A DNA stretch of 64,000 nucleotides from Microbacterium thalli. GTDB taxonomy: Bacteria; Actinomycetota; Actinomycetes; Actinomycetales; Microbacteriaceae. Shown in pieces: positions 2,920 through 42,544 of this stretch (the first letter of the stretch is position 1; each line of letters begins with the position of its first letter). The notes beneath the pieces were generated by a model. It made no database searches, was not told the origin of the DNA, and saw only the letters and a program-made list of their open reading frames with translations. The position numbers and the translations under genes are program-made. The stretch lies in the NCBI RefSeq assembly GCF_028737325.1, contig NZ_JAQZCH010000002.1, forward strand, positions 1-64,000, given 5' to 3'.

Positions 2920-4152
2920 ATGTCTCAGAACGCTACCGGCCCCGAAACCGCCGCCGGCGGGGCCATCAACCCCACCGAGAACCGCTTCACGCGCTGGCTC
3001 AGCCACATCCTGGCCGACCTCGGCAAGAACGGCATCTTCATCGCGCTGATCGCGGTGGTCGCCCTCTTCGCCATCCTCACCAACGGCATCCTGCTGCGCC
3101 CGCAGAACCTGTCGAACCTCGTGGTGCAGAACGGCTACATCCTCGTGCTGGCGATCGGCATGGTGATGATCATCATCGCCGGTCACATTGACCTGTCGGT
3201 GGGATCGGTCGCCGCCTTCATCGGCGCCATCTCGGGTGTCTTCGCCGTCAAGATGGGGATGCCGTGGTGGCTCGCCATCGTCCTGTCGCTCCTCATCGGC
3301 GCTCTGGTCGGAGCGTGGCAGGGCTTCTGGGTCGCCTTCGTCGGCATACCAGCGTTCATCGTGACGCTCGCGGGCATGCTGATCTTCCGCGGACTCGCGC
3401 TCGTCGTGCTCGGCAACGCCAACATCGGCTCGTTCCCGACGGAGTATCGAGCACTCGGTAACGGGTTCCTCGGGGGGCTGTTCGGGGAGTCCGAAACGGA
3501 TCTGTTCACGCTTCTCATCGGCGCGGTGGGCATCGTCGCGCTCGTCGTGCAGCAGTGGCGCACCCGCAGCGGCCGTCAGAAGTACGACCAGCAGGTCGAG
3601 CCCCTCGTGTGGTTCGTCGCGAAGCTCGTGCTGATCTCGATCGTCATCGGTTGGTTCGCTTGGGCGCTGGCGTCGTACAAGGGCATCCCGGTCACCCTGA
3701 TCGTCCTGGCCGTCCTCGTGCTCGTCTACGGCATCGTCATGAACCGCACGGTGTTCGGTCGCCACATCTACGCGATCGGTGGCAACCGCCACGCGGCGGA
3801 GCTGTCGGGCATCAAGACACGCCGGGTCGACTTCTGGCTGTTCGTCAACATGGGCGTGCTCGCGGCCCTCGCCGGCCTCATCTTCACCGCGCGGCTCAAC
3901 CTCGCCGGCCCCAAGGCCGGTGACGGCTTCGAGCTCGAGGCGATCTCGGCTGCCTTCATCGGCGGTGCGGCGGTGCAGGGCGGCGTCGGCACGATCGGCG
4001 GCGCGATCATTGGTGGTCTCATCATCGGTGTGCTTAACAACGGCATGTCGATCATGGGTATCGGCATCGAGTGGCAGCAGGCCGTGAAGGGCCTCGTGCT
4101 GCTGCTGGCCGTCGCCTTCGACGTCTACAACAAGCGGCGTTCGGGTAACTGA
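2920..4152 (+). CDS. mmsB: monosaccharide ABC transporter permease MmsB
   Basis: This is the inner-membrane channel of the ChvE-MmsA-MmsB importer. The 410 residues contain many hydrophobic helices and the BPD_transp_2 signatures AGHIDLSVGSVAAF near residue 90 and GGNRHAAELSGI near residue 290. A polar insert around residues 180-225 makes it longer than RbsC-type permeases (about 320 aa), which is typical of MmsB. The start is ATG 2920, with an aggagat ribosome-binding site. A bidirectional terminator follows the stop at 4152 and closes the operon. Confidence 0.92.
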   Translation: MSQNATGPETAAGGAINPTENRFTRWLSHILADLGKNGIFIALIAVVALFAILTNGILLRPQNLSNLVVQNGYILVLAIGMVMIIIAGHIDLSVGSVAAFIGAISGVFAVKMGMPWWLAIVLSLLIGALVGAWQGFWVAFVGIPAFIVTLAGMLIFRGLALVVLGNANIGSFPTEYRALGNGFLGGLFGESETDLFTLLIGAVGIVALVVQQWRTRSGRQKYDQQVEPLVWFVAKLVLISIVIGWFAWALASYKGIPVTLIVLAVLVLVYGIVMNRTVFGRHIYAIGGNRHAAELSGIKTRRVDFWLFVNMGVLAALAGLIFTARLNLAGPKAGDGFELEAISAAFIGGAAVQGGVGTIGGAIIGGLIIGVLNNGMSIMGIGIEWQQAVKGLVLLLAVAFDVYNKRRSGN

Positions 4153-4166
4153 CCCGGACCACCAGC

Positions 4167-4211
4167 GGCGCCCCGGCCGCGAGACCTGCGGGTCTCGCCG
4201 ACCGGGGCGCC
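4167..4211. terminator. bidirectional nested-hairpin terminator
   Basis: An outer perfect 10-bp stem (4167-4176 with 4202-4211) encloses an inner 7-bp stem (4180-4186 with 4191-4197) with loop TGCG. It lies in the 82-nt gap between the convergent mmsB and oxidoreductase genes, so it can stop transcription from both sides. No T tract is present. Confidence 0.75.
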
Positions 4212-4234
4212 GCGGCGTTCGTGAGCGGCCCGAC

Positions 4235-5176
4235 TCAGGGGATCAGCACGATCTTCCCCGGGGTGTGAGCGGCCACGAGGCGATGGGCCTCGGCGGCAGC
4301 GGCGAGCGGGAGCTCAGGCCCGAGCTCGACGCGGAAGGCGCCCGCCGCGAGCAGCGCCGTCACGACGGGGATGGCCTCGACGCGCCAGGCGAGCTGCTGC
4401 GCCGTGAGGGGGTCGGGGCTGCCGCCCGAGAAGGCGCGGATGCCGAGGCCTGCGGCGTCCGCGCCCCGCACGATCGTCGCGATGCGTGACCGATCGGCGA
4501 CGAGCTCGATCGAGGACGAGAGGGCCTCGTCGGTGCCGGCGCAGTCCAGGGCGACGGTGACACCCTGCGGGGCGACGGAGCGAACGCGCTCCGCGACGCC
4601 GTCGCCGTAGACGACCGGGGTGCCGCCGAGGTCGCGCACGCGGTCGGCGCGCCCCTCGCTCGCGGTGGCGACGACCGCGGCACCGCGCAGGCGCGCGAAC
4701 TGGATCGCCGCCTGCCCGACCGATCCCGATCCGCCGTGGACGAGCAGGGTGTCGGCCGGGCCGACACCGAGCGAGCGCAGCGCCTGGTACGCCGTCGCGA
4801 CCGGGATGCCCAGCGCCGCACCGACCGCGGGGGAGACACCAGCCGGGAGCGGCACGAGCATGTCGGGGGTCGCGATGATGTCGGTCGCGTACACGCCGCG
4901 CGCGCCGAAGATCACGACCTCGTCGCCGACGCGGAACCCCTCGACGTCGGCCCCGACCTGCGTCACGATGCCGGCTCCGTCGTTGCCCATGCGGCGCGGC
5001 TTCGTGATGGTCGCCGACGGACGAAGACCCGCGCGCAGCTTGTGGTCGATGGGATTCACCCCCACCGCGGTGACGCTCAGCCGTACCTCGCCGGGTGCCG
5101 GCTCGGGAACGTCGATGTCGTGGAGGGCGAGGACCTCGGGTCCGCCGAACTCGGAGTACGTCACTGCCTGTGCCAT
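4235..5176 (-). CDS. zinc-independent MDR-family NADPH:quinone oxidoreductase-like protein
   Basis: This is a cytoplasmic NAD(P)H-dependent medium-chain dehydrogenase/reductase of the quinone reductase type. It has the N-terminal GroES-like catalytic domain (roughly 1-120, including GVNPIDHKLRAG) and a Rossmann domain with the nucleotide-binding motif HGGSGSVGQAAIQFAR near residue 145. Structural zinc cysteines are absent, which supports the zinc-independent branch. Its 313 residues fit the family. ATG 5176 is 6 nt after a TAGCGT -10 element, so the mRNA is probably leaderless. It lies 20 nt downstream of hrpA on the same strand. The substrate is unknown. Confidence 0.82.
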   Translation of the reverse strand: MAQAVTYSEFGGPEVLALHDIDVPEPAPGEVRLSVTAVGVNPIDHKLRAGLRPSATITKPRRMGNDGAGIVTQVGADVEGFRVGDEVVIFGARGVYATDIIATPDMLVPLPAGVSPAVGAALGIPVATAYQALRSLGVGPADTLLVHGGSGSVGQAAIQFARLRGAAVVATASEGRADRVRDLGGTPVVYGDGVAERVRSVAPQGVTVALDCAGTDEALSSSIELVADRSRIATIVRGADAAGLGIRAFSGGSPDPLTAQQLAWRVEAIPVVTALLAAGAFRVELGPELPLAAAAEAHRLVAAHTPGKIVLIP

Positions 5177-5182
5177 GACGCC

Positions 5183-5188
5183 ACGCTA
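5183..5188 (-). promoter_or_regulatory. -10 element TAGCGT of the oxidoreductase gene (leaderless start)
   Basis: TAGCGT is followed by 6 nt and then the ATG at 5176. This is the same spacing seen at several other starts in the window. It lies in the 20-nt gap after hrpA, so the oxidoreductase could be transcribed independently of hrpA. Confidence 0.5.
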
Positions 5189-5196
5189 TCGAGTCC

Positions 5197-8100
5197 TCAG
5201 TCCTTCCCGGACAGGGCCTTCGTGATCCGCTGGATCGAGACCGGCTCGGCAGTGCCGAGGCGCTGAGCGAAGAGACTGATCCGGTACTCCTCGAGCAGCC
5301 ACCGCGCACGCACCAGATGCGCCGCCGCGTCGCTCGGGAGCGGGATGGTGCCGCCGGCGTCGGCGTAGAGCGCGGACGCCCGCTCGTACTCGGTGAGGCG
5401 CTGCCGGTCGCGGCCGGGGTTGTCGCTGAGACCGGTGACCCGCTCGAGCGCACCCTGGAGGTAGCGGGGGAGGTGCGCCAGGCGGGCGATACCGGTGCGC
5501 GAGAGGAACCCGGGGAACAGCAGCCCCGCGACCTGCTGCTTCACGTCGCCGAGGGCCGCCAGCAGCACCATCGAGTTCTGCGACCGCACGGCCCGCTCGA
5601 CATCGCGCTGCAGGACGAGAATGCGCGCGGTGAGCGAGACCGCCGCGAAGAGCTCGTCCACGACGGCGGCCGAGAACGCATCGCGCACCGCGCGGAACTG
5701 CGCCTCGGTGCGTACGACCGGCGCCGTGCGGGCGATGACGGCATCGGCGACTGCGACACGTGCGTCCTCGATCAGCGCCTTCGCGGACGGATACGGGGAT
5801 GCCGCGAGCGCGAGCTTCTCGGCGGCGGTGAGGTGATCGAGCACGTATGAGCTCGGCGACGGCACGGCCAGCAGCAGCAACCGTCGTGCACCAGCTGCGG
5901 TGAGGCGTTCGGCGCGTTCGGGTGTCGCCTCGATGCGCAGCGAGACGCTGGCGCCGTCGTCGACCAACGCGGGGTACCCGCGGACGACGCCGCCGGCGAC
6001 ACGCGTGTCGACGAGGTCGGGCAGGTCGCCGACCGTCCACTCGGTGAGCCCCGTGCGCTCGGTCACGGCGCCCGCGGCGGCGGGTTCGCCCGGGATGGCG
6101 ACGGCCGGCTGCGCGCCGGCGCGCGGCGCGGCCCGGGCGAGGGAACGCGCGACCGACGCACGTGAGCGGCCGGCGAGACGCTGCTGCAACTCACCGAGGT
6201 CGCGTGCGCTGCCGAGCGTGCGCCCGCGCTCGTCCACGGCGCGGAACGACATCGACAGGTGCGCGGGCACACGCTCCAGATCGAAGTCGGACGCCGAGAC
6301 CGGCTGATTCGCGACGCGCTGGATCCGTGCGGCGAGCGCGTCGCGCAGCGGTCGCGGGGGCAACCCGTCGTTGGACTCGGGTCCATCGGCACGCAGTTCC
6401 TCGGCGAAGGTGGCCGCCCAGTCGGCGGCCGGCACGACGTGGCGGCGGATGACCTTGGGCAGCGCGCGCAGGAGCCCGGCGATCAGCTCATCGCGCAGAC
6501 CCGGCACCTGCCAGTCGAAGCCGTCGGGGCGCAGCGAGGCGAGCAAGGCCACCGGGACGACGACGCTGACGCCGTCGTCGGGCGAGCCGGGCTCGAACCG
6601 GTAGGCCAGCGACAGGACCTGGTCGCTCTGCCGCCATCGCGCGGGGAACGCCCGCTCATCTCCGCCGGCGGTGTCGCCGGCGAGGTCGGACTCGCTCATG
6701 TCCAGCAACCGCGGCGTACGGGCGGCGGCATCGCGCCACCATGCTTCGAAGGACCGGACGTCGAACACGTCGCGAGGGATGCGCGCGTCGTAGAACGCGA
6801 ACACCGCCTCGTCGCCGACGAGGATGTCGCGGCGACGCTCGCGTTCCTCGATCTTCTCGAGACGCCGGCGCAGCTCGAGGTTGCGGCGCTCGAAAGCGGT
6901 GAGGCGCTTGTCGAGGTGGGCGGAGTTCCAGTCACCTTCGACGAGGGCGTGCCGCACGAACAGCTCGCGCGCGAGCTCTCGGTCGCGTCCGGCCAACTGC
7001 ACCCGCCGGCGGGGCACGATCTCGACGCCGAAGAGCGTCACCTTCTCTGCGGCGACGGCCGCGCCGGCATCCTTCGACCAGTGCGGGTCGCTCAGCGAGC
7101 GGTTCGCCAGGTCGCCCGCCAGGTCTTCGGCCCAGGCCGGATCGATCGCGGCGACGGTCCGCGCGTACAGACGCGACGTCTCGACGAGTTCGGCCGCCAT
7201 CACCGCGTCGGGGGAGGCCTTGCGCAGGCCCGAGCCGGGGAAGACAGCGAACTTCGCGCCCCGTGCACCCCGGTACTCGGCGCGCTGGCGCTGCGGTTTG
7301 GGTGCGCCGGCGCGGGCCGAGCCGCCGCGGGCGGGCGGGGCGGCGCTGCGGGTGTCGAGCACGCCGATCTGCGACAGAAGGCCCGCGAGGATCGCGCGGT
7401 GCACCCGGTCGGGGGCTGCGGCACCGGATGCCACGGACGCCGCGGCACCGGTACCGGCACCCTCACCTGCGGGGCGGACCCCGTCGTCGGGGCGCTGATC
7501 CCGCTCGCGTCCACCGCGGGCCAGCGCGGTGAGCTGGCGCTGGACGTCGGCCCACTCCCGCACCCGGACGTAGTTCAGGTGCTCGGCCCGGCAGAGCCGG
7601 CGGAAGGCGCTCGAGCCGAGCTCGCGCTGCTTCTCCTGCAGGTGGTTCCACACGTTGAGGAGGGACAGGAAGTCGCTCGTCGGATCGGTGAACCGCGCGT
7701 GCAGGCGGTCGGCTTCCTCGCGCCGTTCCTCGGGCCGTTCGCGGACATCCTGGATCGACAGGCCGGCGACGATCGGGAGCACGTCGCGGGTGACACCGAG
7801 GGCGCGCGCCTCAACGAGCATCCGGGCGAAGCGGGGGTCGATCGGCAGCCGCGAGATCTCGCGCCCGATGTCGGTGAGACGCCAGGTCCCCTTCTCGTCG
7901 CGCCGGACGGCCCGCAGCTCGACCAGCAGGTCGAACGCCGCCTTGACCCCGCGCGAGTCGGGCGGGGTCAGGAAGGGGAAGTCGGCGATGTCGCCGAACC
8001 CGAGCGCGAGCATCTGCAGTACGACCGACGCGAGGCTCGTACGCAGGATCTCGGGTTCGGTGAACTCCGGCCGGCCGGTGAAGTCTTCTTCGCCGTAGAG

Positions 8101-29329: not shown

Positions 29330-31786
<2,457 letters not shown>

Positions 31787-32680
31787 TCAGCCCTTGACGG
31801 ACCCGGCGGTCAGACCGCCGATGATGTAGCGCTGCAGACCGAGGAACAGCGCCAGGATCGGGATCGAGGCGAGGACGGCGCCCGCGGCGAACAGGCCCCA
31901 GTTGCTCGCCAGCTGGTTCGAGACCCACTGGAACATCCCCACGGCGAGCGTCCAGTTGTCCTCCGACACCAGGACGATCTTCGCGATGATGTAGTCGCCG
32001 AACGAGGCGATGAACGCCAGCAGCGCCACCACGGCGAGGATGGGCGTCACGAGGGGCATGATGATCCGCCAGAAGATCTGCGCGTGCGTCGCGCCGTCGA
32101 TCTTCGCCGACTCGTCGAGCTCCATCGGGATGGTGTTGAAGAACCCGTACATGAGGAACGTGTTCACACCGAGCGCGCCGCCGAGGTACACGCAGATGAG
32201 GGCGAGCTTCGAGTTCAGCCCGAGGACCGGGAAGACCTCGCCGAGTGCGAGGAGCATCAGGAAGATCGCGACGAAGGCCAGCGCCTGCGGGAACATCTGG
32301 ATGATGAGCAGGGCGGTGAGGCCGGGGCGCCGCCCGCGGAAGCGGAACCGCGAGAAGGCGTACGCGGCTGCGGCACCCATCAACACGGCGCCGAGCGCGG
32401 AGGCGCCACTGACGATCAGCGTGTTGCCGTACCAGGTCCAGTACGACGTCCCCCCGAGCGCCGCGAAGTTCGACAGGTCGAAAGCCGCGAAGAGCCGGTT
32501 GCTCGCGGCGAGGCTGCCGCGGGGGTTGAGCGCCGCCGAGACGACGTACAGCAGGGGGAACATCGCGTAGAAGAGGATGACGAGCGCGACGAGGTACTTC
32601 CAGCCCACGTCGAGCAGCCAGCGGCGGCGGCGGGCCGTGGTCGTGCGGCCGGCGCGGGGACGGACGGTGGCGGTGGACAT
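31787..32680 (-). CDS. ganQ: galactooligosaccharide ABC transporter permease, MalG/GanQ type
   Basis: This is the second membrane subunit of the importer (297 aa, six predicted helices). The EAA loop that contacts the ATPase reads ELDESAKIDGATHAQIFWRI near residue 200. The ending GGLTAGSVKG is typical of MalG homologues. ATG 32680 overlaps the last base of the upstream stop (TGATG), indicating coupled translation; the frame open to 33100 reads into the partner gene. The assignment to galactan products comes from the flanking GH53 and GH42 genes. No ATPase gene is present in the operon, so a shared MsmX-like ATPase elsewhere is expected. Confidence 0.88.
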   Translation of the reverse strand: MSTATVRPRAGRTTTARRRRWLLDVGWKYLVALVILFYAMFPLLYVVSAALNPRGSLAASNRLFAAFDLSNFAALGGTSYWTWYGNTLIVSGASALGAVLMGAAAAYAFSRFRFRGRRPGLTALLIIQMFPQALAFVAIFLMLLALGEVFPVLGLNSKLALICVYLGGALGVNTFLMYGFFNTIPMELDESAKIDGATHAQIFWRIIMPLVTPILAVVALLAFIASFGDYIIAKIVLVSEDNWTLAVGMFQWVSNQLASNWGLFAAGAVLASIPILALFLGLQRYIIGGLTAGSVKG

Positions 32681-34308
32681 CACTGGTACTCCTCCAGCTT
32701 GCGGGTCTGACGGAACGCCAGGGCGGAGATCACGCCGACGACGATGAACACGAGGATCGACAGGGCGCTGGCCAGGCCGTAGTCGGCGGCACCGCCCGAG
32801 ACGCCGGAGATGGCCCAGATCGCGGAGATCAGGATGTCGGTGGCGCCGAGGGCGTAGGGCGCGCCGGGGATCGCCGGCCCGCCGCTGTTGAACATGAAGA
32901 TGATCGTGAAGTTGTTGAAGCTGAACGCGAACGACGAGATGAGCAGCGGGGCGGTCGCGACGAGGACCAGTGGCAGCACGATCGCGCGGAACTGGCGGAA
33001 CCGGCCGGCGCCGTCGATCGATGCCGCCTCGAGTGCGTCGGACGGCAGCGCCTGCAGCGCACCGGTGCACACGAGGAAGTAGTACGGGTAGGTCAGCCAC
33101 ACGTTGACGAACAGGACGGCGATGCGAGCCAGCCAGGGATCACCGAGCCAGTCGATGTTCGCCCCGCCGAAGAAGAACTCGTTGATCACACCGAACTCGG
33201 CGTTGAACATGCCTCGGAACAACAGTGCCGACATGAACGCCGGGAACGCGTAGGGGAGGATGAACAAGGTCCGGAGGATCTTGCGGCCCTTGACCCTCGG
33301 GTCGTTGAAGATCAACGCCACGACGAGCCCCATGATGAAGGGGATGAGCACGGACAGCGTCGCCCAGACGAATGTCCACAGGGTGACGAGCGCCAGCGGC
33401 TCGAGCAGACCGGGATCGGTGGCCAGACGCAGGAAGTTGTCGAACCCGACGTTCACGACCCATCCGGTCGGCAGTGCGGTTCCGTCCTCCGAGACGAAGG
33501 AGCCGCTGTCGCTGGCGGTGTACACCGTGCCGGATGCCGTGTCGGTGATGGTCTGCGCCGCGGCATCCCACTCCAGCGTCGACAGGTAGACGGCGCCGGT
33601 CGAGCCGTCCCTCGTGCGGATGGAGCCCTCGTTCGGGTCGTCCGAGACCGGCACACGGAGCTCGACGACCACGGCCTGCAGGTCGGGATCGCCCAGGAAG
33701 GTGCCTCGGGGAACGACGTTCCACCCGGGAACGTCGGTGGGCGCGCCGGTGGCCGAGGTCTCGCCCACGACTTCCAGAGGCCGATCGACCGCGCCTGCCT
33801 TGATCTCACCGTCGTCGTTGATGGCGAAGCCGTACTCGCCGCCCTGCTCGACCACAGCGAGCGGGTAGGAGGGGGAGGTGTCGACGCGCCGTTCACCCTG
33901 CGCGAGGGCGGCGGCGACGGCCTGCTCCTGCGAGCCGACGTGCCCCGCGCCGTAGTTGGTGAAGGCGATGTACGCGGTGTAGCCGAAGATGAAGACCTGG
34001 AACACCAGCAGGAACGCCAGGCCGGGAAGCAAGTACTTCAGCGGGAGCGCCCGCTTGGTGAAGTACACGACATCGGCGGCGATCAGCAGCACGGCGGCCG
34101 CGGTCGCGATGATCCACGACTCGGCCTGCACGGCGGCGAAGACGCCCATGAGGCCGAACGCGTTGACGATGGCCATCAGCACGAGCTTCACGACGAAGCC
34201 CCAGCCGAGACCGTTCCATCGACGGCCGTGCGGCTCGGCGCCCGGTTTCGACAGCGGGGGCTGAGGCGGCGGTGCGCTCTCGCTCAAGGTTCCCTGGGGG
34301 ACCGACAT
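32680..34308 (-). CDS. ganP: galactooligosaccharide ABC transporter permease, MalF/GanP type
   Basis: This is the first membrane subunit of the importer (542 aa). Three N-terminal helices (about 25-110) are followed by a large extracytoplasmic domain (about 125-290), like the MalF P2 loop, and then the conserved transport domain with the EAA motif LEAASIDGAGRFRQF near residue 425. The start was moved to ATG 34308: AAGGAG (34315-34320) abuts the first ATG at 34314 but stands 6 nt before the second. A hairpin separates it from the binding-protein gene upstream. Confidence 0.9.
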   Translation of the reverse strand: MSVPQGTLSESAPPPQPPLSKPGAEPHGRRWNGLGWGFVVKLVLMAIVNAFGLMGVFAAVQAESWIIATAAAVLLIAADVVYFTKRALPLKYLLPGLAFLLVFQVFIFGYTAYIAFTNYGAGHVGSQEQAVAAALAQGERRVDTSPSYPLAVVEQGGEYGFAINDDGEIKAGAVDRPLEVVGETSATGAPTDVPGWNVVPRGTFLGDPDLQAVVVELRVPVSDDPNEGSIRTRDGSTGAVYLSTLEWDAAAQTITDTASGTVYTASDSGSFVSEDGTALPTGWVVNVGFDNFLRLATDPGLLEPLALVTLWTFVWATLSVLIPFIMGLVVALIFNDPRVKGRKILRTLFILPYAFPAFMSALLFRGMFNAEFGVINEFFFGGANIDWLGDPWLARIAVLFVNVWLTYPYYFLVCTGALQALPSDALEAASIDGAGRFRQFRAIVLPLVLVATAPLLISSFAFSFNNFTIIFMFNSGGPAIPGAPYALGATDILISAIWAISGVSGGAADYGLASALSILVFIVVGVISALAFRQTRKLEEYQ

Positions 34309-34314
34309 GTGCAT

Positions 34315-34375: not shown

Positions 34376-35608
34376 TCAGCCGATAGCGGCTTCGACGTCG
34401 GTCACCATGGTGTTCCACGCCGTGACGGCGTCGCCGCCCTTGATGATCTGAGCCTGAGCCGCGCCCCACAGCTCCCAGACGGAGCCCATCTCGGGGAGCG
34501 AGGGCTGGGGAACGCCGTTCGCCGCGGAGGCGAGGAAGCCGGCGACGACGGGGTCGGACGACACCTCTGCGGCAAGGGTCTTCCACGCGGGCAGACGCGG
34601 GTCGGCCTCGTACAGCGCGCGCTGGGCGTCGTCGGTGGCGAGGTAGGTGGTCAGGAACTCCTGCGCGAGCAGCTTGTTCGAGCTCTCCGAGCTGATGTAG
34701 AAGCCCTGCACCCCGACGAACGGCGCCGCCGTCTCGCCGCCGGCCGACGGGATGGGGTTGACCTTGACGTTGACCCCGTCCGCGGTCAGCGCCTCGATCG
34801 CCCACGGGCCCTGCACCGTATAGGCGGCCGTGCCCGAGGCGAACAGCTCGTTGTTGGTGTCGTAGTCGATCGTGGTCGAGATCTCACCCGAGCCCGCCTC
34901 GCCGTGAGCTCCGAGCCAGGAGGCGAAGGCCTCGCCGGCCGGGCCGCCCATGCCGATCTCGGTGGTGTACGACCCCGAGGCATCCTGCACGAACACCGGG
35001 GCGCCGAACGACGTCTGGAACCCGTACATCGTGTACGCGTCGCCCTTCTGACCGGCGGTGTTGATCACGAACGGACGCTCAGCGCCGGCCGCCTGCGCGC
35101 GGGCGATCATGTCGTCCCACGACGTCGGGGCCTCTTCGCCCACGAGGTCGGTGTTCTGAATGAGGGCCATCGTCTCGAGCGCGTAGGGGAAGCCGTAGAC
35201 CTGCCCGTCGTACGTGAACGCGTCGACGGCCACCTGCTCGATCTGCTCGGCCTTGTCGCCGAGGTCGATCGTGTCCACCACGCCGGCCGAGACGAACGAG
35301 CCGAGGAAGTCGTGCGCGCCGACGGTGATGTCGGGGCCCTCGCCCGTGGGGACCTGGTTGATGAAGTCGTTGCGGATGTCCTCGAAGTTCTTCTGGACCA
35401 GCTCGACCTTCGTGCCCGTCTCTTCTTCGAACGCCTTCGCGGCCGCCTCGATGGCGGGCGCGCGGTTCGCGTCGGTCCAGACGACGAGCGTGCCGCCCGA
35501 GCCGCCGTCGGCGTTGCCGCTCTCGCTGGGGGAGCTGCCGCCGGAGCAACCGGCGAGCAGAACGGTGGTCGCCGCGATGGCGACGATTCCGGTCCCGATC
35601 TTGCGCAT
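34376..35608 (-). CDS. ganS: galactooligosaccharide-binding lipoprotein, MalE/GanS type
   Basis: This is the solute-binding lipoprotein of the importer (410 aa). The signal peptide ends in LLAGC, with lipidated Cys21, followed by a Ser/Gly-rich linker and a cluster B binding fold (TLVVWTDANRAPAIE, then GPDITVGAHDFLG and YGFPYALETMALIQN). ATG 35608 with GGAAG upstream starts exactly at the signal peptide; the frame open to 35752 adds only non-signal sequence. Maltose-type binding proteins look similar, but the neighbours (endo-galactanase, beta-galactosidase) point to galactooligosaccharides. It lies 147 nt after the GH42 gene. Confidence 0.88.
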   Translation of the reverse strand: MRKIGTGIVAIAATTVLLAGCSGGSSPSESGNADGGSGGTLVVWTDANRAPAIEAAAKAFEEETGTKVELVQKNFEDIRNDFINQVPTGEGPDITVGAHDFLGSFVSAGVVDTIDLGDKAEQIEQVAVDAFTYDGQVYGFPYALETMALIQNTDLVGEEAPTSWDDMIARAQAAGAERPFVINTAGQKGDAYTMYGFQTSFGAPVFVQDASGSYTTEIGMGGPAGEAFASWLGAHGEAGSGEISTTIDYDTNNELFASGTAAYTVQGPWAIEALTADGVNVKVNPIPSAGGETAAPFVGVQGFYISSESSNKLLAQEFLTTYLATDDAQRALYEADPRLPAWKTLAAEVSSDPVVAGFLASAANGVPQPSLPEMGSVWELWGAAQAQIIKGGDAVTAWNTMVTDVEAAIG

Positions 35609-35755: not shown

Positions 35756-37777
35756 TCAGCGATCACCTCCGGGTGCTGTGCGCGGTGCTCGGACGACGGC
35801 GACGTCGCCCGCACTCACCTCCAGCGTGCCCTCGACGGTGTCGCCTGTCAGCAGGTCGACGCCCTCCAGAGCGAGTCGTGCGGCCGTCGCACCGTGGTTG
35901 ATCGCGACGACGTAGTCGGTGTCGGCGCCCGCGCGGCGGACGACCTCAAGCCCTGCGGAAGCCGGCAGCGGTGCGATGCCGGCGTCGGCGTAGACCTCCG
36001 TCATGACGGCGGCCAGGCCGGCGGCATCCGGCCGCGTGCTGATGTACCAGCCGGCTCCGTTACCGTGCGACTTGCGCGTGATCGCGGGCATGCCCGCCGC
36101 GGGGCCGTCCGTGTAGGTGGCGCGCGTCTCGGCGCCCGTGACGACGAGGTGCTCGTGCCAGGCGTCGACGCGCAACGTGTCTTCGCCGAAGGCGACGGAC
36201 GTCGACACCCCTGCGCGCAGCGGCAGGTGCTCCTCGACCCAGACGCCGAGCGACGGCTCGAGGGGGACGCCGAACCCGCCCGCGTGGACGGCGTCGTTCT
36301 CGTCCACCACCGCCGAGAAGAACGACACCACGAGCGTGCCGCCGCTTTCGACGTAGCGGTTGAGGTTCTCGGCGTCGTCGCGACGCAGCAGGTACTGGGC
36401 GGGAGCGATGACCAGCTTGTAGGCCGAGAGGTCGTCGCCGGGAAGGGCGAAGTCGGCCGTGATGTTGTCGCGCCAGAGTCGCTCGTAGAACGCGCGGATC
36501 CGCTCGTCGTGCGAGACGTCCTCGGACGGACGCCATTCGAGGTCCTGCGCCCAGAACGACTCGAAGTCCCACAGGATCGCGACATCCGCCTGCACGCGCG
36601 AACCGCGGACCTCCGACAGTCGGTCGAGCTTGGCCCCCAGGTCGACGACCTCGCGGAAGACGCGGGACCCCGTGCCGGCGTGCGGCAGCATCGCCGAGTG
36701 GAACTTCTCGGCGCCCGAGCGTCCGGCGCGCCACTGGAAGAAGAGGATGCCGTCGGCGCCGCGGCCGAGGTGCGAGAGCGAGTTGCGCGCCATCTCACCC
36801 GGACGCTTCGCGACGTTGCGCGGCTGCCAGTTCACGGCCGAGGTGGAGTGCTCCATGAGGATCCACGGCTTGCCACGGCCCACGGATCGTGAGAGGTCGG
36901 CGGCGATGGCCAGGCCGATCTCGCCCTCGTCGTCGGCGGCCCACAGGTAGTGGTCGTCCGACACGATGTCGACCTCGCGCCCCCAGGCCCACAGATCGCA
37001 GCCGTTGTGCTGGTTGGCCATGAAGTTGGTGGTCACCGGCAGGGACGAGAAACGACGGATGGCGTCGCGCTCGGCGACGAAGCAGGCGCGCAGCTGCGCG
37101 TCGGTGAAGCGGGCGAAGTCCAGGCGCTGCGCGGGGTTGACCACCGAGGGTGCGGCAGCGGGTGCGCCGACGTGCTCCCAGTCGCCGTAGTGCTGCCCCC
37201 AGAAGGCCGTGCCCCACGCGGCGTTGAGCGCGTCGAGGCTGCCGTACTTCTCCTGCAGCCAGCTGCGCCAGGCGCGGACGGCGTGGGGGGAGTAGTCCTC
37301 GCCGACCGGGACGCCGTACTCGTTGTGCACGTGCCACATGACGACGGCCGGGTGGTCGGCGTAGCGCTCGGCCAGCGCGCCGGCGATGCCCACGGCTGCT
37401 TCGCGGTAGGCGGGGGCGGAGTGCGAGGCCATGCCGCGCGACCCGAACCCCATGACGACGCCGTCGCGGGTGATCACCCGGGCGTCGGGGTGGTTCGCGA
37501 AGAACCAGGCCGGGGGCGAGGCCGTGGGAGTGCCGAGGTCGACGGCGATGCCGTTCTCGTGCAGCAGCCCGATGATCTCGTCGAGCCAGTCGAAGTCGAA
37601 CACGCCCTCGCTCGTCTCGATGAGCGCCCACGAGAAGATGCCGATGCTGACGACGTTGACGCCGGCTTCGCGCATCAGGCGCACGTCCTCGCGCCATACC
37701 TCGCGCGGCCACTGCTCGGGGTTGTAGTCGCCGCCGTAGGCGATCCCGTCGATGGCCGGCCAAACGCTCGCAGGCAT
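35756..37777 (-). CDS. ganA: beta-galactosidase (GH42)
   Basis: This cytoplasmic beta-galactosidase hydrolyses imported galactooligosaccharides to galactose. The GH42 catalytic barrel has acid/base Glu153 in WHVHNEYG and nucleophile Glu309 in WILMEHSTS. A trimerisation domain (about 395-600) and a small C-terminal beta domain follow. It has 673 residues, as in the family, and no signal peptide. ATG 37777 has AAGGA 8 nt upstream and begins 9 residues before the conserved GIAYGGDYNPEQW. It is the first gene of the operon and is preceded by two LacI-type operators. The zinc-site cysteines of some GH42 enzymes are not evident. Confidence 0.92.
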   Translation of the reverse strand: MPASVWPAIDGIAYGGDYNPEQWPREVWREDVRLMREAGVNVVSIGIFSWALIETSEGVFDFDWLDEIIGLLHENGIAVDLGTPTASPPAWFFANHPDARVITRDGVVMGFGSRGMASHSAPAYREAAVGIAGALAERYADHPAVVMWHVHNEYGVPVGEDYSPHAVRAWRSWLQEKYGSLDALNAAWGTAFWGQHYGDWEHVGAPAAAPSVVNPAQRLDFARFTDAQLRACFVAERDAIRRFSSLPVTTNFMANQHNGCDLWAWGREVDIVSDDHYLWAADDEGEIGLAIAADLSRSVGRGKPWILMEHSTSAVNWQPRNVAKRPGEMARNSLSHLGRGADGILFFQWRAGRSGAEKFHSAMLPHAGTGSRVFREVVDLGAKLDRLSEVRGSRVQADVAILWDFESFWAQDLEWRPSEDVSHDERIRAFYERLWRDNITADFALPGDDLSAYKLVIAPAQYLLRRDDAENLNRYVESGGTLVVSFFSAVVDENDAVHAGGFGVPLEPSLGVWVEEHLPLRAGVSTSVAFGEDTLRVDAWHEHLVVTGAETRATYTDGPAAGMPAITRKSHGNGAGWYISTRPDAAGLAAVMTEVYADAGIAPLPASAGLEVVRRAGADTDYVVAINHGATAARLALEGVDLLTGDTVEGTLEVSAGDVAVVRAPRTAPGGDR

Positions 37778-37811: not shown

Positions 37812-37827
37812 CTGTGACCGGTCACAG
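37812..37827. promoter_or_regulatory. operator 1 of the galactan operon (ctgtgaccggtcacag)
   Basis: This perfect 16-bp palindrome with a central CpG-type core (ACCGGT) is typical of LacI-family sites. It lies just downstream of the predicted -10 element of the GH42 promoter, where a bound repressor would block transcription, like lacO1. Confidence 0.8.
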
Positions 37828-37839
37828 GGTGTGATCACC

Positions 37840-37845
37840 AGCGTA
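37840..37845 (-). promoter_or_regulatory. predicted -10 element TACGCT of the galactan operon
   Basis: TACGCT on the minus strand lies between the two operators. It would start transcription near 37833 and give a 5' leader of about 55 nt that contains operator 1. Confidence 0.4.
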
Positions 37846-37882
37846 ATCGAGCGCGTCGGATTCCCGGGATGCCGTTATCGAA

Positions 37883-37898
37883 CTGTGACCGGTCACAG
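37883..37898. promoter_or_regulatory. operator 2 of the galactan operon (ctgtgaccggtcacag)
   Basis: It is identical in all 16 bases to operator 1, with centres 71 bp apart. It lies upstream of the GH42 promoter and about 65 bp upstream of the regulator start, so it could serve both divergent promoters or allow looping. Confidence 0.8.
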
Positions 37899-37948: not shown

Positions 37949-37954
37949 TAGGCT
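37949..37954 (+). promoter_or_regulatory. -10 element TAGGCT of the LacI-type gene
   Basis: TAGGCT is followed by 7 nt and GTG 37962, predicting a leaderless regulator mRNA. Confidence 0.55.
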
Positions 37955-37961
37955 CACCGAC

Positions 37962-38978
37962 GTGAACGGCACCACCGGCGCGTCGCGCAAACCGACCATT
38001 CGCGACGTCGCGGCCGCCGCGGGCGTCTCGCACGGCACGGTCTCGCGCGTCATCAACGGCGGGCATTGGGTTTCGCCCGAGGCGCGCGAGGCGGTCGACC
38101 GGGCGATCCGCGAGACCGGGTACACCGCCAACCACGCGGCCCGCAGCCTCGCCACGGGGCGCGCGAACTCCCTGGCCTTCCTGCTGACGGAGCCGCAGCA
38201 CCTGCTGTTCGCCGACCCGACCTTCGCACTCCTGCTGCGGGGGGCCACCGAGGCGCTCGCGCAGCGGTCGATGACGCTCGTCCTGATGATCGCCGACACC
38301 GCCGCCGAACGGGCCAACGTCGAGCGGTACGTCCGCGCCGGGCACGTCGACGGTGTGCTGCTGATCTCGTCGCACGAGTCCAACCCGCTGCTGGCCTCGC
38401 TCATCGCGGCGGGCGTGCCGACGGTGTGCACGGGTGTGCCGCTGGGCGACCGCGCGCACGTGCCGACGGTCTCGGTCGACGAACAGGAGTCGGCTCGGGT
38501 GATGACGCGCCACCTGCTCGCTCAGGGGCACCGGCGCATCGCCGTCATCACCGGGCCCAACGACACCCCGGGCGGCCGCTATCGCCTCGAGGGCTTCCGG
38601 GCCGAGATGGGGGAGCTGTTCGATCCCGACCTCGTCGAGCAGGACGTCTACTCGAGCGACGCCGGAGCCGCGGCCATGGGCCGCCTGCTCGAGCGCGCGC
38701 CCGACATCGAGGCGGTGTTCGCGGCATCCGACGTCATGGCCGTGGGCGCGATCGCCGCCATCCGTCGCAGTGGCCGGACGGTGCCCGACGACATCGCGGT
38801 GGCGGGATTCGACGACTCCGGCCTCGCGGCCACGCACGACCCGCCCCTGACGACCATGCGGCAGCCGTGGGGTGAGATCAGCGCGGCCATGGTCGACATG
38901 GTGCTGCAGGTCATCGCCGGGGGGGACCCGCAGCCGCTCGTGCTGCCGACGACCCTCGTGCGCCGCGAAACCGCGTGA
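37962..38978 (+). CDS. LacI-family repressor of the galactan operon
   Basis: This is a DNA-binding regulator (338 aa) with an N-terminal LacI HTH (about 11-35, TIRDVAAAAGVSHGTVSRVIN), a hinge helix (NHAARSLATG) and a periplasmic-binding-type sensor domain. It is encoded divergently from the GH42 gene, with two identical palindromes between them, so it is very likely the repressor that releases the operon when galactose or a galactooligosaccharide binds. The inducer is inferred. GTG 37962 gives a normal N-terminus; the frame open from 37869 crosses operator 2. A LacI-type regulator in the same position is also typical of gan loci in other bacteria. Confidence 0.9.
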   Translation: MNGTTGASRKPTIRDVAAAAGVSHGTVSRVINGGHWVSPEAREAVDRAIRETGYTANHAARSLATGRANSLAFLLTEPQHLLFADPTFALLLRGATEALAQRSMTLVLMIADTAAERANVERYVRAGHVDGVLLISSHESNPLLASLIAAGVPTVCTGVPLGDRAHVPTVSVDEQESARVMTRHLLAQGHRRIAVITGPNDTPGGRYRLEGFRAEMGELFDPDLVEQDVYSSDAGAAAMGRLLERAPDIEAVFAASDVMAVGAIAAIRRSGRTVPDDIAVAGFDDSGLAATHDPPLTTMRQPWGEISAAMVDMVLQVIAGGDPQPLVLPTTLVRRETA

Positions 38979-41566: not shown

Positions 41567-42544
41567 TCAGCGGGTCGAGGAGCCGCGGATGATCTCCCAC
41601 GGCAGGTCGACGACGTCGGGCTCGACCCCATCGCGAACGGTGCTGAGCGCCTCGAACATCGCCGCGGGGGCGAGTTCGGGATGCACGCAGACGTGCGTCA
41701 CCCCCAGGCGGCTGTTGACGGCGCAGTCGGTGGTGCACAGTGCGACGAACTGCATGTCGCGGGGGATCACGAAGTCCATCTCCTCGAGCTGCAGGTAGAT
41801 GGCCGGACCTTCCTCGGCGAACGAGAAGATCGCGTCGGCACCGGCGTCGCGCAGCTCGCCGACGCGGCGGGGGAGTGACCCGTGCTCGGCATCGACGTGC
41901 GCGACCAGCGGCGTGCGCCCCCGAACCGTGCTCCACGCGCGGTACGCGCTCTCGCCGATGCGATCACGCGGGGCGCCGGCGTCGTCGACGAGGAAGCCGA
42001 TCCGCTGCGCGCCCCCGGCCTCGAGCAGCCCGAGCGCCGCGCGCACGGCCTCGTCGTAGCCCGTGCGCACGGTGATCGAGCGTTCGGTATCGACGTACAG
42101 GTCGTTCGTCGCGACCGGGATGCCGCGGATGACCGCCTCGCGCAGCAGCAGGTCGTCGGCGGCGACCTCGGCGAAGTACACGACGTCGATCTGGGCGCCG
42201 CGCAGCAGGTCGGGGCGCGAGGCGGGGAGCATCGTGACGGTGAAGCCCTGCTGGGCCGCCGCACTGACCAGCGCGCCGATGTGACGGCTGCGGTGCAGCG
42301 CGCTGCGGCGCGACAGGTCGAGCTCGATGCCCTCGGGCAGCACGAAGCCCACCGACATCGTCCGGCCGCTGCGGAGGGCGGCGGCGTATTTGTTGGGTTG
42401 ATAGCCGAGCTCGGCCGCGATCGCCTTGATGCGCTCGCGCGTCTCGAGGCGCAGACTCCCGCGGTCGTTGAGCGCCTGGCTGATGGCGGCCGTGGAGACA
42501 CCCGCGCGCAGCGCGATGTCTTTCAGGGTCACCTGCCGGGTCAT
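41567..42544 (-). CDS. LacI-family regulator coupled to hemA
   Basis: This is a LacI-type DNA-binding protein (325 aa) with HTH at about residues 5-28 (TLKDIALRAGVSTAAISQALN), a hinge (NKYAAALRSGRT) and a sugar-binding-protein-like sensor domain. Its ATG overlaps the hemA stop by ATGA, so it must share the hemA transcript. Its target is unknown: the nearest galactan operators lie about 4 kb away and belong to another LacI-type gene. It could be a stray regulator captured by the hemA operon. I see no sugar gene beside it. Confidence 0.85.
   Translation of the reverse strand: MTRQVTLKDIALRAGVSTAAISQALNDRGSLRLETRERIKAIAAELGYQPNKYAAALRSGRTMSVGFVLPEGIELDLSRRSALHRSRHIGALVSAAAQQGFTVTMLPASRPDLLRGAQIDVVYFAEVAADDLLLREAVIRGIPVATNDLYVDTERSITVRTGYDEAVRAALGLLEAGGAQRIGFLVDDAGAPRDRIGESAYRAWSTVRGRTPLVAHVDAEHGSLPRRVGELRDAGADAIFSFAEEGPAIYLQLEEMDFVIPRDMQFVALCTTDCAVNSRLGVTHVCVHPELAPAAMFEALSTVRDGVEPDVVDLPWEIIRGSSTR

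Follow-up and report, generated by a model that had tools for sequence, protein, structure and literature searches.

The predicted promoter of a plant-galactan operon in the soil actinobacterium Microbacterium thalli is flanked by two identical palindromic operators, O1 and O2. Comparison with relatives shows that the operators, their pairing, their spacing and a sequence tail joined to O2 are conserved, and it points to the neighboring LacI-family regulator as their likely reader. All of these elements lie in the window, the 64,000-nucleotide stretch of DNA that was analyzed. With slightly better than even confidence, we read the arrangement as a LacI-family repressor acting from two promoter-flanking operators, of which O2 is joined to a promoter-upstream or activator site, so that the operon would be shut twice.

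The operator pair and its conservation

The genes on the reverse strand encode a GH42 beta-galactosidase (35756-37777, 673 aa, ATG start; Pfam PF02449 at 3.6e-142, PF08532 and PF08533), the extracellular sugar-binding protein of an ABC importer (34376-35608; SBP_bac_8, 2.2e-43), a MalF-type ABC permease (32680-34314; BPD_transp_1 and TM_PBP2_N), a MalG-type ABC permease (31787-32680; BPD_transp_1) and a GH53 endo-beta-1,4-galactanase (29330-31705, 791 aa; PF07745, 7e-121). The divergent regulator (37962-38978, forward strand, 338 aa, GTG start) matches the Pfam models LacI (3.5e-15) and Peripla_BP_3 (2.6e-34) and carries the recognition helix GVSHGTVSR. GH53, GH42, a sugar ABC importer and a LacI regulator thus meet in one locus, a gan-type gene set by Pfam, and the content of the operon bears out the galactan use proposed in the first-pass annotation. 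The binding protein scored 164 bits against the NCBIfam GanS model, short of the cut-off of 700. Note that the GH53 protein ends in LASTG followed by a hydrophobic stretch and basic residues; this resembles a sortase signal, and the galactanase may therefore be anchored to the cell wall. A second LacI-family gene (41567-42544, 325 aa), with a weak match to the sugar-binding domain, is separated from the lacI region by two genes, presumably for methionyl-tRNA synthetase and TatD, which they resemble.

O1 (GH42-proximal, 37812-37827) and O2 (lacI-proximal, 37883-37898) are both exact copies of the palindrome CTGTGACCGGTCACAG. Their centers are 71 bp apart within a single 184-bp intergenic gap. 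The first-pass annotation had described two identical 16-bp sites at this distance between divergent LacI-type and GH42 genes, with no other copy in the window, and each of these points held: neither site has a mismatch, and no third match with up to three mismatches occurs in the 64-kb window. Dinucleotide shuffles of the window gave a mean of 0.36 matches at the same tolerance and reached two in 6 of 100 cases. A genome-wide scan for the palindrome, which the annotation had suggested as a check, covered 22 contigs and 3,085,847 bases (3.09 Mb) and returned O1 and O2 as the sole perfect copies; allowing up to two mismatches gave five places, these two and three others with two mismatches. A chance origin of the pair is strongly disfavored by its conservation in relatives. 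The operator is an even palindrome with a central CG where the halves CTGTGACC and GGTCACAG meet, and this CG is kept in 51 of 51 loci (alignment anchored on a loose operator match).

We also considered whether TGTGA...TCACA could be a CRP/GlxR site. The motif of these regulators is TGTGA-N6-TCACA with fixed outer and free inner bases. Here the spacer is 4, the inner ACCGGT is nearly fixed and the third half-site base is T, G or A, and this reading was rejected. Separately, TGTGACCGTTCACA, one mismatch from the operator core, occurs at 189-202 of L007 (G000 contig C16) in front of a gene adjoining a second LacI-type gene, a possible case of cross-talk or a sister operator.

To follow the pair in the genus, we searched 149 genomes with the LacI protein. 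At E 1e-60 or better 121 genomes matched, many of them only through paralogues of at most 46% identity, and the top 53 LacI loci (52-100% identity) formed the same-genus set. An operator precedes lacI in 51 of these 53. The two rows without an operator (L066 and L067, LacI identity 52-54%) were left out of later counts; they lie below a gap in LacI identity that separates rows of at least 64% from rows of at most 54%. Where the GH42 gene is divergent (46 loci), there are always two (38 loci) or three (8 loci) operators, one of them on the GH42 side. In the 38 pairs the spacing was 67 bp (2 loci), 68 (5), 69 (14), 70 (9), 71 (6), 72 (1) or 75 (1), so that 34 pairs fall within 68-71 bp. Loci with three operators have a nearest spacing of 58/59 or 70 bp and the third site 34/35 bp further on. 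Across all 46 loci, taking the nearest operator, O1 and O2 are 58-75 bp apart (sd 3.9), while the distances from O2 to lacI (26-72 bp, sd 10.1) and from O1 to GH42 (34-107 bp, sd 20.3) were obtained with gene starts extrapolated to query residue 1.

In the remaining five of the 51 loci the divergent neighbor is a binding-protein frame; three of these have one operator and two have two operators at 24 bp. Six loci (L138, L129, L140, L146, L160 and L177), two of them on the same contigs as genus loci, have as neighbor a binding protein 45-46% identical to that of the window. These other-importer loci keep operator and tail, and the operon of L138 (an M. flavum contig), read to its end, includes a GH13 enzyme. 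The regulator may have changed its target sugar in such loci or taken over another operon. One locus from a metagenome-assembled genome (MAG; L179) has O2 and the tail close before GH42 and no O1.

A family-wide search of 398 genomes gave 58 matches at E 1e-95, from which 28 loci were newly fetched. Ten of these belong to other genera, with LacI identity of at least 67% and a GH42 gene alongside. In nine of the ten, two strict operators are separated by 68-69 bp; in L189, the remaining locus, O2 is diverged and lies at 69 bp. In the seventeen family loci at 52-56% (L194-L210) no operator pair was found, and two of them hold an unrelated ACCGGT-centered palindrome. Among five genomes in which lacI has no GH42 neighbor, three have a GH42 protein 44-49% identical, in no case near an operator match, and the other two had no GH42 match at E 1e-50. 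Note that L132 (labelled Stenotrophomonas maltophilia P13) and L137/L142 (labelled Planococcus sp. APC 4015) carry a Microbacterium-type locus; these labels look wrong, or the assemblies contaminated.

The likely reader of the operators

The closest solved relative of the regulator is 5ysz (E 1.2e-75), an entry titled LacI-family regulator that we take to be CelR. In 86 rows, the operator bases 4 and 5 from the center co-vary with residues 24-25 of the regulator, just before TVSR in the recognition helix. These residues are HG in 29 rows, RG in 32, YG in 11 and RS in 14. For the most part, HG helices go with the half-sites TGTGACC and TGGGACC (also TGTTACC), RG helices with TGTGACC and TGGGACC, YG helices with TGTGACC and TGTAACC, and RS helices with TGAGACC and TGGGACC. 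For the RS regulators, 83 of 84 half-sites read TGAGACC or TGGGACC; TGTAACC is confined to YG regulators. Residues 24-25 and the two varying bases are those of the published LacI code: in the portion available to us, it pairs bases NT-5 and NT-4 with residues 15 and 16 for the TVSR group of LacI (PMC2978694).

The mutual information between helix type and the two O2 half-sites was 0.51 and 0.62, with none of 2000 shuffles as high, a figure that overstates the covariation because the rows are related. The loosely conserved tail columns, +11 to +13, gave the same result (0 of 2000), indicating that relatedness alone can carry covariation far; for TAAC against helix type, 26 of 2000 shuffles were as high. 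The RS rows form one clade on the LacI tree, and for the YG helix an independent-pairs test had too few pairs. The first-pass annotation had called the sites operators of the neighboring repressor. To this assignment the comparison adds a phylogenetic footprint and helix covariation, together strong evidence, though from related rows. We conclude that the neighboring LacI-family protein most likely reads O1 and O2.

The O2 tail and the predicted promoter

Directly abutting O2 on the GH42 strand is a tail, TTCGATAACG (37873-37882, reverse strand; consensus TTNNRTAACG), which the first-pass annotation overlooked and which is absent from O1. We aligned the 51 genus loci, chosen by their LacI protein, on the operator alone. 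The columns following the lacI-proximal operator were T (51), T (48) or C (3), three looser positions (the third G in 31 and A in 20), T (50), A (49), A (51), C (51) and G (45). TAAC directly follows this operator in 49 of the 51 loci, and TAACG does so in 45. The two loci without TAAC at this place, L053 and L059, have the tail against the other operator. Outside the genus RTAACG was present in 9 of 10 loci, with the first two tail letters looser (AT in L184); L189 has both operators at 69 bp and no TAACG. The 64-kb window contains TAACG 11 times, both strands counted. Among downstream operators in 88 rows, 1 of 91 bears a TAACG tail; these rows are those unique by sequence among 116 anchored sites, with L053 and L059 counted twice and four loci lacking the anchor. 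Since the anchoring pattern includes part of the tail, the 86- and 88-row sets alone cannot prove the tail fixed, and the tail counts are given from the 51 protein-found loci.

A scan for operator plus tail in 84,980 species genomes (GTDB contigs) returned 57 stretches. Of these, 55 adjoin a LacI orthologue, one is unrelated and one precedes a solitary GH53 gene in L142. L142, the sole GH53 case outside a lacI locus among the 57, encodes a 1202-aa GH53 protein (4162-7770) with its own O2-tail-O1 promoter (4030-4160), in which the second operator lies at 69 bp. No lacI match was found in the fetched 8 kb; the contig carries its lacI locus at another place. Thus, the tail goes with the target promoter and not with lacI.

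In the M. thalli genome, operator edge plus tail with up to two mismatches gave 9 matches, of which one was perfect; a reversed control gave 10. For the tail on its own, at most one mismatch being allowed, there were 25 matches against 3 for the control; 20 of the 25 were put to an open-frame test, by which the true site itself also lies in an open frame. The three copies of TCGATAACGA outside the locus that were looked at are all inside genes and give no sign of a wider activator regulon. We know of no counterpart of the TTNNRTAACG tail.

The predicted -10 hexamer of the GH42 operon, TACGCT (37840-37845, reverse strand), came from a motif search between O2 and O1. The mean best score was 7.0, compared with 3.9-4.4 in five shuffled sets, and in 79 of 88 rows the best hexamer starts 46/47 or 57/58 bases from the O2 center, positions that differ by about one helical turn. 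Note that the evidence for +57/58 partly uses operator letters. On a simpler pattern test, 37 of the 39 rows with the hexamer at 46-48 fall in one clade of 38 rows on the LacI tree, the two methods classing some rows differently (e.g. L016, L023 and L127). Within the RS clade, nine rows combine +46/47 with a 58/59-bp spacing and three combine +58 with 70 bp. The prediction places the GH42 transcript start near 37833. Relative to it, O1 would span +7 to +22, O2 -65 to -50 and the tail -49 to -40. The first-pass annotation had likewise put one site past the predicted GH42 start point and the other upstream. A scan for sigma-70 consensus promoters found no GH42 promoter, and no conserved -35 box was seen at columns -35 to -30 (the information content does not exceed 0.42 when 50 class A/C rows are aligned by their -10); actinobacterial promoters often have no clear -35. 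On the other side of the gap, TAGGCT (37949-37954, forward strand) is the predicted -10 of the lacI gene as read from the sequence. It lies only 7 nt before the GTG, and the transcript is possibly leaderless; similar hexamers are visible before lacI in relatives (uncounted).

Proposed mechanism, alternatives and known systems

According to the mechanism we favor, the regulator (37962-38978) would repress the GH42-importer-GH53 operon from the two identical promoter-flanking operators until released by a sugar derived from galactan; the example of GanR in Bacillus makes galactobiose the probable one. O1 would cover the transcript start (in sister clades the -10 box) and thereby block RNA polymerase. 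The TTNNRTAACG element, joined without a gap to O2 at about -49 to -40, may seat a class II activator or serve RNA polymerase as an upstream contact. Repressor bound to O2 would keep this element from working (anti-activation), shutting the operon a second time. We infer repression, the inducer, the promoter position, the presence of another factor on the tail and its masking by O2 from the layout and from known systems. Repression at O1 combined with O2 control of a promoter-upstream or activator site would account for O2 and tail staying together, for the tail-bearing operator being the one retained, and for a tail-to-promoter distance that seemingly shifts by a whole turn. In the single-operator loci the retained operator is indeed the one with the tail, making a description of O1 as main and O2 as auxiliary operator too simple. 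A more specific version, which we hold only tentatively, sees in TTNNRTAACG the binding site of a novel actinobacterial activator, or an upstream promoter element not described so far, that has to lie on a fixed face of the helix and is tied edge to edge to the LacI-family operator; the repressor would act mainly by displacing the activator, and O1 would be a second lock that can be lost.

Looping appears unlikely. In this reading, two repressor dimers on O1 and O2 would contact each other, directly or via an architectural protein, so that the promoter is enclosed in a loop of ~70 bp, and the tail would be of minor importance. Looping would suit the narrow spacing (67-75 bp in 38 pairs, 68-69 bp in the ten other-genus loci), and GalR loops as dimers with the help of HU. 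The spacing classes of 24, 34.5, 59 and 69.5 bp are near multiples of 11.6-11.7, a fit equalled by 0.66% of random sets with a free period. However, this periodicity is post hoc, with class means chosen by eye and a poor fit at 10.5 and 11.1, and the range from 67 to 72 already covers half a turn. In the portion of the source at hand, 11.60 bp per turn is a fitted in vivo value from one lac data set, a second set giving 11.08 (PMC1762422). The tetrameric repressor that the first-pass annotation had invoked for looping is unsupported in its lac-type form, since the C-terminal tetramer helix is absent. The alignment ends at residue 328 of 360 in E. coli LacI (337 of 338 in the regulator, which stops one residue later); among 82 orthologue rows, 77 stop at the aligned end and five continue for 1-5 residues. 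Moreover, the tail-bearing operator stands alone in seven other-importer loci (two nearly identical) and in the MAG locus L179, and looping leaves the tail unexplained.

We consider it quite improbable that the regulator is an activator, or both activator and repressor, working from O2 with the tail as a cooperating promoter-upstream element. CcpA activates at some promoters, the O2 center is near -58 of the predicted start, and the lone retained operator bears the tail before another ABC importer (in L138 with a GH13 enzyme). Nevertheless, most LacI-type sugar regulators of this sort repress, and the position of O1 is most naturally read as repression. An uncoupled arrangement, with O1 serving GH42 and O2 autoregulating lacI, is hard to credit. 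Autoregulation is common in the LacI family, and single-operator loci keep the operator near lacI; B. subtilis GanR, as described in the sections available, represses both gan and its own gene (PMC5472308). In contrast, the O2-lacI distance is varied (26-72 bp) and the O2-O1 distance narrow, and the complete O2-tail-O1 set stands before the lone GH53 gene of L142 with no lacI match in the fetched 8 kb. We find it very doubtful that the regulator recognizes the tail as a third half-site, 11 bp from the O2 center, and so binds O2 more tightly: GRTAACG resembles the GGTAACA of some O1 half-sites, TGTTACC half-sites occur with HG regulators and columns +11 to +13 differ between helix types, but the tail has G where operators have A at base 7, its central-G place is not fixed, and TAAC is unchanged with RS regulators, whose half-sites change, and in 9 of 11 YG rows, a persistence that makes it probable that the regulator itself does not read the tail.

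Through the comparison, what began as a conjectured pair of operators becomes a regulatory module that is widely conserved and can be tested. The HG, RG, YG and RS helices with their matching operators form a natural specificity series, and a conserved promoter element, putatively factor-binding, is exposed. Should an activator prove to bind the tail, identifying that protein would open a way into carbon control in Microbacterium and its family.

Several known systems resemble parts of this arrangement. In E. coli lac, the main operator O1 at the transcript start and the upstream operator O3 have a loop-sized spacing like that of the window, which differs in its identical operators, the O2 tail and the absence of a tetramer tail. 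CytR of E. coli is a LacI-family repressor acting next to the activator site of CRP, whereas the tail of the window is unlike a CRP site and its second factor only putative. The module was not found in literature on Microbacterium with LacI, operator, regulon or galactan, as judged from titles and the beginnings of abstracts. GanR of Bacillus subtilis is a LacI-family repressor beside a five-gene galactan operon whose promoter has the operator motif twice, an arrangement like that of the window. In the excerpts available, GanR is induced by galactobiose and its motif, AGTAAA-(4-7 nt)-TTTACT, occurs twice just upstream of the -35 of ganSPQAB (PMC5472308). Two operators for a LacI-family repressor in front of a galactan operon have a precedent in GanR, which differs in operator and promoter geometry; these excerpts mention no tail (PMC5472308). 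GosR (GalR) of Bifidobacterium is likewise an actinobacterial regulator, assigned to galactan and galacto-oligosaccharides in the parts of the two reports at hand (PMC4746261, PMC3815386). CelR/CebR of Thermobifida and Streptomyces, in the available part of the source, likewise have a CG-centered palindrome, the 14-bp TGGGAGCGCTCCCA, but with the inner bases AGCGCT in place of the ACCGGT of the window, and serve a cellulose/cello-oligosaccharide regulon with boxes before many genes (PMC5332605).
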